In this document: positions 60,655-64,000 of the stretch, piece by piece
How positions within the stretch are numbered: the first letter of the stretch is position 1
Layout of the letters: each line of letters begins with the position of its first letter
Origin: Allobosea sp.
GTDB lineage: Bacteria > Pseudomonadota > Alphaproteobacteria > Rhizobiales > Beijerinckiaceae
Direction: 5' to 3'
Length of the DNA: 64,000 nucleotides
Assembly: GCF_017308075.1 (NCBI RefSeq)
Contig: NZ_JAFKFX010000040.1
Location: 1 to 64,000 of the forward strand
Notes under the pieces: generated by a model
What the model was told of the DNA's origin: nothing
Seen by the model: the letters and a program-made list of their open reading frames with translations, nothing else
Databases searched by the model: none
Translations under genes and position numbers: made by a program

Positions 60655-62961
60655 TCAGCGCTTCCGGCCGGGCTTGGCTCGGCCGGGCCGGGCCATACTG
60701 CGCCTTGCAGCTAGGGGACGCGCGGCTTTTTTGAAAGAGCGGTTCGATGTCACAGTCCGTCCCTCGCTCAGGAGCTCGAAGCGCAGGGCGCCCGCGACGG
60801 GGGCCGCCTCGACCAGGCGGACATGGACACGGTCGCCGAGACGCCAGCTTTCACCGCTGCGCTCGCCGATCAGCGCATGGGCGGCTTCGTCATGGCGGTA
60901 ATAATCCGCGCCGAGCGTCGAGGCCGGCACGAAGCCGTCGGCGCCGGTGCCGTCGAGCTTGACGAAGAGCCCGGCGCGATTGAGACCGGCGATGCGGCCA
61001 TCGAAGCTCGCGCCGATCTGGTCGGCGAGGAAATGCGCGATCAGCCGGTCGGTGGTCTCGCGCTCGGCCGCCATGGCGCGGCGCTCGGCCGCCGAGATCC
61101 GGGTCGCGACCTCGCGCAATTCGGCGAGCGTCGTCGCCTTGGGCAGCCCGTCATCGCCGCGCTTCATCGTCGCGATCAGGGCGCGATGGACGACGAGGTC
61201 GGCATAGCGCCGGATCGGCGAGGTGAAATGCGCGTAGCGGCGCAGGTTGAGGCCGAAATGCCCGTAGTTCTCGGCGATATATTCGGCCTGGGCCTGGGTG
61301 CGCAGCACCACCTCGTTGATGAAGAGCTCGTTCTCCGAACCCTTGATCATCTTGAGGATGCGGTTGAACAGCACCGGCCGCAGCGCGGCGTCCTTGGGCA
61401 GCTTGATGCCGATCGAGGCTAGGACCTCGCCGAGCGCGCGCATCTTCTCGAGCGAGGGCTCGTCATGGCAGCGATAGATCAGCAGGCTACCGGCCTTCTC
61501 CAGCGTCTCCGCCGCGGCGACGTTGGCGAGGATCATGAACTCCTCGATCAGCTTGTGGGTCGCCAGCCGGTCGGGGACGATGACGCGGTCGACCGAGCCG
61601 TCCGCCTTCAGGATCAGCTTGCGCTCGGGCAGGTCGAGATCGAGCGGCTGGCGCGCGTCGCGCGCCCGTGCCGCGACGCCATAGGCGGCCCAGAGCGGCA
61701 TCAGGATGCTCTCGCGGATCGCGGCGGTCGCCTCGTCCGGCTGGCCGTCGATCGCGGCTTGCGCCTGCTGGTAGGAGAGTTTTGCGGCCGAGCGCATCAG
61801 GATGCGGTGGAAGGAATGGCCCTTCTTCGAGCCGTCGGCCTTGAGCACTAGGCGGACGGCGAGCGCCGGCCGGTCCTCGCCGCCGCGCAGCGAGCAGAGG
61901 TCGTTCGAGATCCGCTCCGGCAGCATCGGCACGACGCGGTCGGGGAAATAGACCGAATTTCCGCGCTCCAGCGCCTCGCGGTCGAGCGCCGAGCCCGGCC
62001 GGACATAGGAAGCGACATCGGCGATGGCGACGGTGACGACATAACCGCCGGGATTGTCGGAGTCCTCGTCCGGCGCGGCGTGGACCGCATCGTCATGGTC
62101 CTTGGCGTCGGCCGGGTCGATGGTGATCAGCGGCAGGTCGCGCCAGTCCTCGCGACCGGCCAGCGTCGCCTTCGGCGCAGCCTCGGCCTCGGCGAGCGCT
62201 GCCGGCGAGAATTCGTTGGGGATGCCATGGGCGTGGATCGCGATCAGCGACACGGCCCGTTCCGACTTCAGCGAGCCGAGCCGCTCGCGCACCCGCGCCT
62301 CCGGCGGGCCGAAGCGACCCTCGCGCCGGAGCGAGACCGAAACGAGGTCGCCGTCCTGGGCGTCGCCGGTCTGGCCCTTCGGGATCAGCGCCTCGCGGCC
62401 CTGCGCCTTCTTGTCGACAGGGATGAGCCGGCCGGAGCCGTCGGGCAGGGCGCGGAAGATGCCGAGCACCTGCGCCTTGCCTTTGCCCATGATCTTCAGG
62501 ACGCGGCCGGACCAGGAAATGCCGGTCGTGCCACGCAGGCGCGAGAGCTTGAGCAGGACCTGGTCGCCGATGCCGGGCGCGGCGACCGCGGGGCCGGCTC
62601 GGCGCGAGCGCGACGGGCGGCCGGTCTCGATCAGGATCTTCGGCGCCTCGCCCTGGTCGGTCTCGTTCCATTCGAGCGGCACCGCGACGAGGTCGCCCTC
62701 GCGGTCACGGCTCTTGATCTCGCAGAGCAGCACGGCGGGCAGCGCGCTGTGCTTGCGCACCGGCGACCCATCCTCGGCCGCATCGACATGCGCTTCGTCC
62801 TCGAGCTCGCGCAGCAGCCGCTTCAGCCAGATCTTGCCGCCGGCATCGAGGCCGAAGGCCTTGGCGATGTCGCGCCGGCCAGGCTCACGGCCGGCGGCCC
62901 GCTCCTCCTCGATGAAGGCGAGGATGGCCTGGCGGGGAAGGTCAGGGGCTGGCGCTGGCAA
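60655..62961 (-). CDS. rnr: Ribonuclease R
   Basis: A 768-residue exoribonuclease. N-terminal: a winged-helix region (AILAFIEEERAAGREPGRRD) and cold-shock domains. The RNB catalytic domain has DPADAKDHDDAVHAAPDEDS with its metal-binding aspartates, YFPDRVVPMLPERISNDLCS, and RYAHFTSPIRRYADLVVHRA. A C-terminal S1 domain (GRIAGLNRAGLFVKLDGTGA) and a basic tail complete it. The enzyme degrades structured RNA 3'-5' and works in tmRNA quality control. The TTG start is the only in-frame start: a stop lies four codons upstream, and GAGG precedes it by seven bases. See the upstream unit below. Confidence 0.95.
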   Translation of the reverse strand: MPAPAPDLPRQAILAFIEEERAAGREPGRRDIAKAFGLDAGGKIWLKRLLRELEDEAHVDAAEDGSPVRKHSALPAVLLCEIKSRDREGDLVAVPLEWNETDQGEAPKILIETGRPSRSRRAGPAVAAPGIGDQVLLKLSRLRGTTGISWSGRVLKIMGKGKAQVLGIFRALPDGSGRLIPVDKKAQGREALIPKGQTGDAQDGDLVSVSLRREGRFGPPEARVRERLGSLKSERAVSLIAIHAHGIPNEFSPAALAEAEAAPKATLAGREDWRDLPLITIDPADAKDHDDAVHAAPDEDSDNPGGYVVTVAIADVASYVRPGSALDREALERGNSVYFPDRVVPMLPERISNDLCSLRGGEDRPALAVRLVLKADGSKKGHSFHRILMRSAAKLSYQQAQAAIDGQPDEATAAIRESILMPLWAAYGVAARARDARQPLDLDLPERKLILKADGSVDRVIVPDRLATHKLIEEFMILANVAAAETLEKAGSLLIYRCHDEPSLEKMRALGEVLASIGIKLPKDAALRPVLFNRILKMIKGSENELFINEVVLRTQAQAEYIAENYGHFGLNLRRYAHFTSPIRRYADLVVHRALIATMKRGDDGLPKATTLAELREVATRISAAERRAMAAERETTDRLIAHFLADQIGASFDGRIAGLNRAGLFVKLDGTGADGFVPASTLGADYYRHDEAAHALIGERSGESWRLGDRVHVRLVEAAPVAGALRFELLSEGRTVTSNRSFKKAARPLAARRSMARPGRAKPGRKR

Positions 62962-63060
62962 GCGGCGGCCTCATCAGGATATGGCGCTGCAATAAATCAC
63001 GCCTCTCTCTGGCATGTCCTGCCGCGGCGCGCCAGAAGCGGCTGCGCAGGGCCGATCGCG

Positions 63061-63095
63061 CAAAAGAGAAGGGCCGCCCTTGCGGGCAGCCCTTC
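63061..63095 (-). terminator. Rho-independent terminator between rnr and the tiny ORF unit
   Basis: On this strand GAAGGGCTGCCC, a GCAA tetraloop and GGGCGGCCCTTC form a 12-base stem (one G-T pair), followed by TCTTTTG. It ends 100 bases before the rnr start codon. Transcripts that read through it would reach rnr. Confidence 0.85.
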
Positions 63096-63142
63096 CATTG
63101 CCGAACCGCAGCCCCGGTAACCGGGCCTGACGTCGCGAAAAC

Positions 63143-63220
63143 TCAAACGGAACCGAACCCCTCATGGGACGAGTCCAGGCCATGCAGTCCCCGCGACAGC
63201 GGTTGATGACAATGAGACAC
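63143..63220 (-). CDS. Candidate 25-residue leader peptide or small gene
   Basis: A short ORF starting GTG, seven bases after GGAGG in AAAGGAGGTGATCCA, which is complementary to the whole 3' tail of 16S rRNA. The peptide reads SHCHQPLSRGLHGLDSSHEG and continues for a few residues to a TGA. It has four histidines and a cysteine, including an SHCHQP start. After the stop come a CCCGG/CCGGG stem and the terminator, then rnr on the same strand. It could be a translated leader that attenuates rnr, a separate small gene or part of a small RNA. It is too short to prove by sequence alone. Confidence 0.4.
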   Translation of the reverse strand: MSHCHQPLSRGLHGLDSSHEGFGSV

Positions 63221-63240
63221 TGGATCACCTCCTTTCAGTT

Positions 63241-63513
63241 GTTACCGACAAGGTGAGGCTAGGGTGATTCCAGCGCGCCCGTAAACGACAAAGATTCAGC
63301 GCCGATTTTGCTGTCCACTGCCGAATTCGACGGCGCTTTTGTTGCGCTGCACAGGCGCTGCCCAAATATTCACCGGCCGATCTGCCCGCGCCTTATGCAG
63401 ATGCGCTCGCATTGTCGCCCCGGGTCCACTGTTTCGGAGAAATCTGCCCGGAATGTCACCGGAACCGCGCAGTTTCCCGCATTTGCTGCGCTTGCGAACG
63501 CGGCCGGGGCGGT
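63241..63513. other. Intergenic region upstream of the urtA promoter
   Basis: About 270 bases without a supported gene, between the tiny ORF and the sigma-54 promoter. The only noted structure is an ATGCG-CT-CGCAT inverted repeat at 63401-63412, about 100 bases ahead of the -24 box, a plausible place for an activator to bind. Confidence 0.4.
63401..63412. promoter_or_regulatory. Inverted repeat, possible activator site for urtA
   Basis: ATGCG and CGCAT separated by CT. It is about 100 bases upstream of the sigma-54 promoter, where NtrC-type activators usually bind, but the sequence only loosely resembles the NtrC consensus (TGCAC...GTGCA). Confidence 0.25.
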
Positions 63514-63528
63514 TGGCACGTCGCTTGC
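63514..63528 (+). promoter_or_regulatory. Sigma-54 promoter of urtA
   Basis: TGGCACGTCGCTTGC matches the -24/-12 consensus TGGCAC-N5-TTGC exactly at the invariant GG and GC, with the correct spacing. It lies about 79 bases ahead of the urtA start. Nitrogen control of urea uptake fits this type of promoter. Confidence 0.85.
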
Positions 63529-63606
63529 GATCCCCCTGTCGCCAGCCAGCAAGGCTGCGCCGTGCCCGGCAGGGGCGCGGTCAACAGAATATCGGGGGAC
63601 ATCTCG

Positions 63607-64000
63607 ATGAAGCTCACACGTCGCGTTGTATTGGGTGCCGCCTTCCTCAGTGCCACGGCTCTCTCCACGGTGATTCCCGCAGCCGCACAGCAGGAGACCA
63701 TCAAGATCGGCATCCTGCACTCGCTCTCCGGCACGATGGCGATCTCGGAGACGACGTTGAAGGACGTCATGCTCATGCTCATCGAGGAGCAGAACAAGAA
63801 GGGCGGCGTGCTCGGCAAGAAGCTCGAGGCCGTCGTCGTCGATCCCGCCTCGAACTGGCCGCTCTTCGCCGAGAAGGCGCGCGAGCTGATCGTCAAGGAC
63901 AAGGTCGCGGCCGTGTTCGGCTGCTGGACCTCGGTCTCGCGCAAATCGGTGCTGCCGGTGTTCAAGGAGCTGAACTCGATCCTGTTCTACCCCGTGCAGT
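63607..64000 (+). CDS. urtA: Urea ABC transporter substrate-binding protein UrtA (5' part)
   Basis: The first 131 codons; the gene runs off the right edge. Signal peptide: [20 protein letters not shown] with cleavage near AAAQQ. The mature start, [20 protein letters not shown], then [40 protein letters not shown] and [20 protein letters not shown], is the UrtA pattern, a branch of the leucine-type binding proteins specific for urea. The sigma-54 promoter upstream indicates nitrogen-limitation control; urtBCDE probably follow outside the window. The ATG follows GGGGGAC. Confidence 0.93.

Follow-up and report, generated by a model that had tools for sequence, protein, structure and literature searches.

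An element with an extended anti-16S Shine–Dalgarno sequence upstream of rnr in Bosea is probably a stand-alone small mRNA of the CC2171 family

Upstream of the gene for RNase R (rnr), the window (the whole 64,000-nucleotide stretch of DNA analysed here) carries a compact element that is probably a stand-alone small mRNA rather than a control switch for rnr, as judged from its sequence and predicted structure. It combines an extended Shine–Dalgarno sequence, a small open reading frame (ORF), a long-range helix that we call P1 and an intrinsic terminator (Table 1). We consider it very likely that the element belongs to the alphaproteobacterial CC2171/rreB/rreR family, of which it is a new genus-level (Bosea) example; the family is described but poorly understood. 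A previous sequence-only reading of the window had reported a GTG-started ORF of 25 codons on the rnr strand, a CCCGG/CCGGG stem after its stop followed by a 12-base GCAA-loop terminator, and rnr close downstream. All of these parts were located; a gap of 108 nt separates the match to the Rfam family RF01867 from the called TTG start of rnr (62961).

Table 1. Positions of the element's parts and of the neighbouring rnr gene in the window
Feature	Position	Strand	Remarks
Promoter-like block TTGTCGTTTACG ... GAATCACCCTAGCCT	63256-63291	-	putative, from conservation in Bosea
RF01867 (CC2171) full-length match	63244-63070	-	88.4 bits, gathering score 75, model positions 1-159 of 159
Extended Shine–Dalgarno sequence GAAAGGAGGTGATCCA	63236-63221	-	complement of the 16S 3' end over 16 nt, or 17 if the G of GTG is counted
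GTG-started small ORF MSHCHQPLSRGLHGLDSSHEGFGSV and TGA stop	63220-63143	-	25 codons plus stop
P1 5' arm CATTGTC	63208-63214	-	codons 3-5; long-range helix
Inner hairpin CCCGG-TTA-CCGGG	63113-63125	-	in the sequence and in the predicted fold
P1 3' arm GGCAATG	63096-63102	-	abuts the terminator hairpin
Intrinsic terminator	63062-63095	-	12-bp stem, GCAA loop (hairpin 63095-63068), then TCTTTT
rnr, RNase R	60655-62961	-	TIGR02063 652.8 bits, cut-off 597.85; adjacent gene, considered separate from the unit

The element occurs once in its own genome. Matches to RF01867 were found in 47 of the 61 genomes that comprise its own and 60 relatives (35 above the cut-off) and in 74 of 149 genomes of an order sample, own genome included (13 above the cut-off); among 14 control genomes, Caulobacter vibrioides gave the sole match. 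Two genomes of the order sample (G781 and G786) have two matches each, compared with one in the other matching genomes listed. A strict pattern, AAAGGAGGTGATCCN{1,4}DTG, was present in 73 of 387 genomes of the class, with no match to the reversed control among the rows listed, and in a phylum sample it was present in 59 of 113 Alphaproteobacteria versus 1 of 186 other genomes. Five of eight loci scanned with RF01867 (L080, L129, L145, L152 and L243) matched below the gathering score of 75, at 37.6 to 71.7 bits, and share the layout of the element. Subthreshold scores include those of the Bradyrhizobium-type locus L080 (44.5 bits), one Sphingomonas locus (41.4 bits) and the Rhodobacterales loci L145 (40 bits) and L152 (37.6 bits); the gathering score excludes the loci of these three kinds that were tested. 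Many loci were found by the Shine–Dalgarno pattern (L032–L103) or by this pattern plus NTGTC (L126–L244), and the invariance of the Shine–Dalgarno sequence and start codon within these sets is circular because the loci were chosen by those features. Two other Rfam hits fell below their gathering scores and were taken as chance: the terminator matched ctRNA_p42d (31.2 bits versus 50) and locus L181 matched BjrC68 (25 bits versus 39).

The extended Shine–Dalgarno sequence had been read as complementary to twelve bases of the 16S tail. The complementarity is real, and its length was understated: it spans 16 nt, or 17 with the G of GTG. A search for the 16S gene in the genome's own sequence did not find one, and the pairing, including the full 17 nt, was therefore judged against the 16S end GCGGCTGGATCACCTCCTTTCT from a genome of the same order. 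The earlier statement that this site is far stronger than any other ribosome binding site in the window held up; the next-longest exact anti-16S run elsewhere in the window is 9 nt (4252 possible start codons), and the duplex with 16S has a calculated energy of −32.4 kcal/mol compared with −28.6 kcal/mol for the best among 224 other ORFs, for which several starts were scored per ORF. When up to three mismatches were allowed, the 16-mer occurred in the window a single time, at the element and with no mismatch; a match of this quality also turned up, once or more, in 27 of 100 shuffles. An intact copy of the 14-mer AAAGGAGGTGATCC is present in 44 of the 47 elements that were found via RF01867 and not via the Shine–Dalgarno pattern, a count affected by the fact that the RF01867 model itself scores this sequence; L108, L110 and L115 carry one or two changes in it. 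Predicted openness of the Shine–Dalgarno sequence is only modest, and the site is not clearly free: its mean unpaired probability is 0.41 versus 0.31 for the middle of the element, and it is the more open of the two in 124 of 170 cases. Some of its bases are paired with the tail of the terminator when the window element is folded to minimum energy, a pairing absent from the centroid, and a hairpin of 2–3 bp is placed inside it by both the Rfam model and RNAalifold (3 bp in the latter). A second candidate copy in the same genome, GGAGGTGATCCAGTG at C52:77710, was rejected as a chance coding site; it lies inside a long reading frame, which we take to be that of a DnaE-type polymerase.

Small mRNAs with a Shine–Dalgarno sequence of 17 nt were reportedly described by Hahn et al. 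in 2017 as rreB of Bradyrhizobium (14 amino acids) and rreR of the Rhodobacter/Roseobacter lineage (18 amino acids), and rreB is said to co-sediment with 30S subunits and to be weakly translated. A scan of named genomes gave at least 119 stretches, and among the matches listed we found 14-codon ORFs behind the same Shine–Dalgarno sequence in Bradyrhizobium (L166, L176, L180, L184, L202 and L222) and in a Bradyrhizobiaceae metagenome-assembled genome (MAG; L227), as well as 18-codon ORFs in Rhodobacterales. These presumably correspond to rreB and rreR, whose reported sizes they match. A table in PMC7217052, a paper that cites Hahn et al., lists peptides of 14 amino acids from B. japonicum and 18 amino acids from Dinoroseobacter shibae, both as unstructured. 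A literature search for a statement that equates CC2171 with rreB and rreR found none. Because 14- and 18-codon ORFs stand behind the same Shine–Dalgarno sequence, because of the cited peptides and because of the subthreshold RF01867 matches, we take CC2171, rreB and rreR as one putative family, with the assignment of rreB and rreR resting on the Shine–Dalgarno sequence, the layout and the reported ORF lengths. The window element itself has at least 16 nt of anti-16S sequence abutting the start codon (against the 16S end of the same-order genome), and a short ORF stands directly behind it, followed by its own terminator, as in rreB and rreR.

The predicted fold of the window RNA is more stable than those of 200 of 200 shuffles (z = −4.37), and it pairs codons 3–5 with the seven bases directly before the terminator, forming P1. 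This helix is already contained in the model structure of RF01867, which is named in a section of PMC11701678 among the families revised with R-scape. The position of P1 is constant across the class while its letters vary (CAUUGUC/GACAAUG, CAUGGUU/GACCAUG, GUGAG/CUCAC, GUGGGA/UCUCAC, CAUGAAU/AUUCAUG and others). The predicted helices P1 and terminator stem covary across the class, with many compensatory changes in P1. Swapping of arms was applied to sequences not chosen by P1, from 184 of 233 loci (49 without a located terminator were dropped). High-scoring P1 arm pairs numbered 73 of 142, compared with a mean of 14.4 and a maximum of 26 after swapping (300 rounds), and strongly pairing distinct 5' arms numbered 33 of 81, compared with a mean of 3.7 and a maximum of 11 (1000 rounds); related loci are not independent in these counts or in the conservation values given below. 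P1 went unrecognised in about half of the set of 142 arm pairs. A further 30 sequences were the author's choice (40 were wanted, of which 7 had no located terminator and 3 long ones were dropped) and are biased towards elements in which P1 had previously been seen; in this set, both partners vary at 5 of the 7 base pairs in P1 and at 10 of the 12 in the terminator, the outermost P1 pair (31-208) fails to form in 14 of the 30, and none of the slid P1 registers checked approaches the true one. RNAalifold, unaided, predicts four P1 pairs.

The covarying structure, the drift of the peptide, the duplex energy and the Rfam classification as an sRNA would all suit a CC2171-type non-coding RNA, an anti-16S decoy that sequesters 30S subunits or competes with the Shine–Dalgarno sequences of mRNAs and in which the ORF is incidental. 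This explanation deserves attention, but we consider it unlikely given the behaviour of the ORF. The frame is open for 14–59 codons in all 224 of 224 dereplicated elements, and a stop before codon 12 occurs in none of the 224 in the ORF frame versus 76 and 78 in the other two frames. Furthermore, a distance of precisely one base from GATCC to the start codon is kept in 72 of 73 class hits, where one to four were allowed, and the second codon begins with TC in 62 of 71 class-pattern loci, a feature that the pattern does not demand.

A functional micropeptide gene, with a product (MSHCHQP...) that acts in the cell and a Shine–Dalgarno sequence that drives its high expression, is improbable in our view. 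Among the 36 genomes of the genus that have a match, own genome included, 34 do share identical codons 1–8, except for a synonymous A/G in codon 6, and the synonymous excess in Bosea also fits such a gene. However, peptides differ from clade to clade and range from 14 to 59 codons in length, the pairing of P1 accounts for codons 3–5, an NCBIfam search with the window peptide gave no match, and the peptides of 14 and 18 amino acids are listed as unstructured in the table cited above (PMC7217052). The window peptide is rich in histidine, as the sequence-only reading had noted, but beyond MSHCHQPL it varies within the genus; histidine content is conserved neither among Bosea relatives nor between clades, and a histidine leader was rejected.

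Coding signals from the sequences of four clades are mixed. No marked excess of diversity at third positions was seen in any of the four (third versus other positions: Bosea, 0.226 versus 0.195 and 0.209; Rhodobacterales, 0.271 versus 0.278 and 0.268; Sphingomonadales, 0.242 versus 0.319 and 0.347; Bradyrhizobium, 0.031 versus 0.038 and 0.082). The synonymous fractions point both ways: those of Bosea (0.50 versus 0.23 and 0.23) and Rhodobacterales (0.40 versus 0.29 and 0.24) favour constraint on the peptide, whereas those of Sphingomonadales (0.20 versus 0.36 and 0.44) and of Bradyrhizobium (0.22 versus 0.00 and 0.35, with few changes) lend it no support. Each clade has a uniform ORF length, which is partly a consequence of picking the clades by start and length. 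Given that the ORF is kept open, that third positions show no excess, that the synonymous fractions are mixed and that codons 3–5 are bound in P1, we read the pattern as selection that acts more on translation through a fixed number of codons than on the peptide.

Two variants of the ORF were seen along the way. In six loci (L034, L037, L197 from Azospirillum sp. B21, L058, L101 and L102), an ORF of 55–59 codons stands behind the extended Shine–Dalgarno sequence and by eye resembles a short secreted peptide, with a hydrophobic stretch and an Ala-rich end; P1-like pairing is kept in L034 and L037. MSS-type elements (L095, L099, L108, L112, L113, L240 and similar) have a GGAG-CARC-CUCC-like hairpin inside the ORF. 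Near the ORF end this hairpin specifies 'EQP' or a similar motif that recurs, and what seems to be conserved is the RNA and not the peptide.

Conservation also bears on where the transcript begins and ends. Across 36 Bosea-type loci, the upstream segment 63245-63279 has a conservation of 0.81 compared with 0.57 for 63280-63370, and TTTACG is prominent in the Bosea upstream consensus; we infer a transcript start near 63250. A scan of 62900-63600 for the sigma-70 consensus gave no match, and a class-wide positional upstream consensus yielded nothing beyond one weak T upstream of an AACAA block. In the same 36 loci, conservation is 0.80 in the later codons and 0.95 in the region that spans the P1 3' arm and the terminator, which was not used to pick the loci; the 0.995 of codons 1–8 is so by choice, because the loci were picked by the first 24 bases of the ORF. 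It is 0.59 in the 108 nt from the terminator to rnr, compared with 0.57 in distant upstream sequence. By this comparison the conserved unit ends at its own terminator. A short independent transcript, one of two layouts that the sequence-only reading had put forward, is indirectly supported by the promoter-like block, the element's own terminator, its single copy and the class-wide family.

The other layout was a leader-peptide attenuator of rnr, for which the order and spacing of the parts fit and which gains from rnr adjoining the element in 35 of 119 loci, all from the genus of the window (34 genomes, the own one counted twice; the RNase R of the window was the query). Two loci of the same genus, L106 and L107, have no rnr within 4.1 kb. 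Among the at least 119 named-genome loci, rnr accompanies L139, L144, L241 and L244 (Bosea) and L170. The last of these (PNLY01000032.1) is a MAG titled Methylobacterium sp., with a Bosea-type element and rnr behind it, and is probably mislabelled. No rnr was found in the tested loci other than Bosea-type ones in either set (119 and at least 119 loci; L245–L250 and L252 were outside these tests), which means absence in the sequence covered, because many loci have only about 1.5 kb of downstream DNA and some have less than 300 nt. Neighbouring ORFs are diverse, with 273 clusters among 425, as counted with a crude ORF caller whose output contains spurious frames, and neither the minimum-energy nor the centroid fold contains a competing antiterminator. 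In the loci compared, the ORF stays open, P1 and the terminator covary, and adjacency to rnr is confined to Bosea-type loci. On the other side of the element, the window end cuts a divergent gene (63412-63999, plus strand), the start of which encodes a UrtA-like substrate-binding protein of a urea ABC transporter.

An attenuator in which translation of the small ORF decides terminator readthrough into the RNase R gene is thus highly improbable, and we reject it because synteny is not kept and the gap between terminator and rnr is unconserved, in addition to which no histidine leader is conserved. Across the loci compared, the adjacency of rnr shows no lasting link to the element, and a misleading connection between the element and RNase R is removed.

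We somewhat favour a stand-alone CC2171/rreB/rreR mRNA of about 180–190 nt in which the Shine–Dalgarno sequence would hold a 30S subunit and passage of the ribosome would open P1. The tight grip of the extended Shine–Dalgarno sequence on the 16S tail would keep a 30S subunit in place at the start codon. A ribosome that leaves initiation would have to open P1, and for that reason the RNA, through the state it is in and how long it lasts, would report on initiating 30S subunits and may titrate them, with translation of the ORF, more than its peptide, as the target of selection. Putative steps deduced from sequence are separate transcription, capture of the 30S subunit by the 17-nt duplex and the unfolding of P1 as the ribosome passes. 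That the whole chain operates, from a held 30S subunit to an RNA that reports on or titrates initiating subunits, is a possibility to which we give slightly less than even weight. More tentatively still, CC2171, rreB and rreR could be one Alphaproteobacteria-wide RNA, Sphingomonadales included, that senses or buffers free 30S subunits by means of a 17-nt anti-16S grip, a translated ORF without a conserved message and a conserved closing helix whose opening by the passing ribosome sets the fate of the RNA. Two points can be tested: P1 is open to compensatory mutation, and the presence of the ORF is kept more than its message.

Leader-peptide attenuators comprise a short ORF, a terminator, a regulated gene and regulatory codons. 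The window element resembles those of the trpL/peTrpL type in Sinorhizobium in having a short ORF followed by a terminator, but unlike them it has neither a conserved regulated gene nor conserved regulatory codons; the peTrpL leader peptide is treated in a passage of PMC7298713. MH_s33 of Mesorhizobium huakuii, a Rhizobiales relative, appears in a table of PMC5596092 as a predicted sRNA of RF01867 and, by that entry, belongs to the same Rfam family as the window element. The RF01867 model of the Caulobacter sRNA CC2171 has the same Shine–Dalgarno sequence, P1 and terminator as the window element, which differs in its longer middle region; Rfam files the family as an sRNA, whereas the elements examined here keep an open ORF, and these data tie the CC2171 'sRNA' to a family of small mRNAs. 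With rreB and rreR the window element has in common an extended Shine–Dalgarno sequence of 16–17 nt, a GTG start and the predicted form of a small mRNA; it differs from them in its 25-codon ORF of other sequence and in adjoining rnr.
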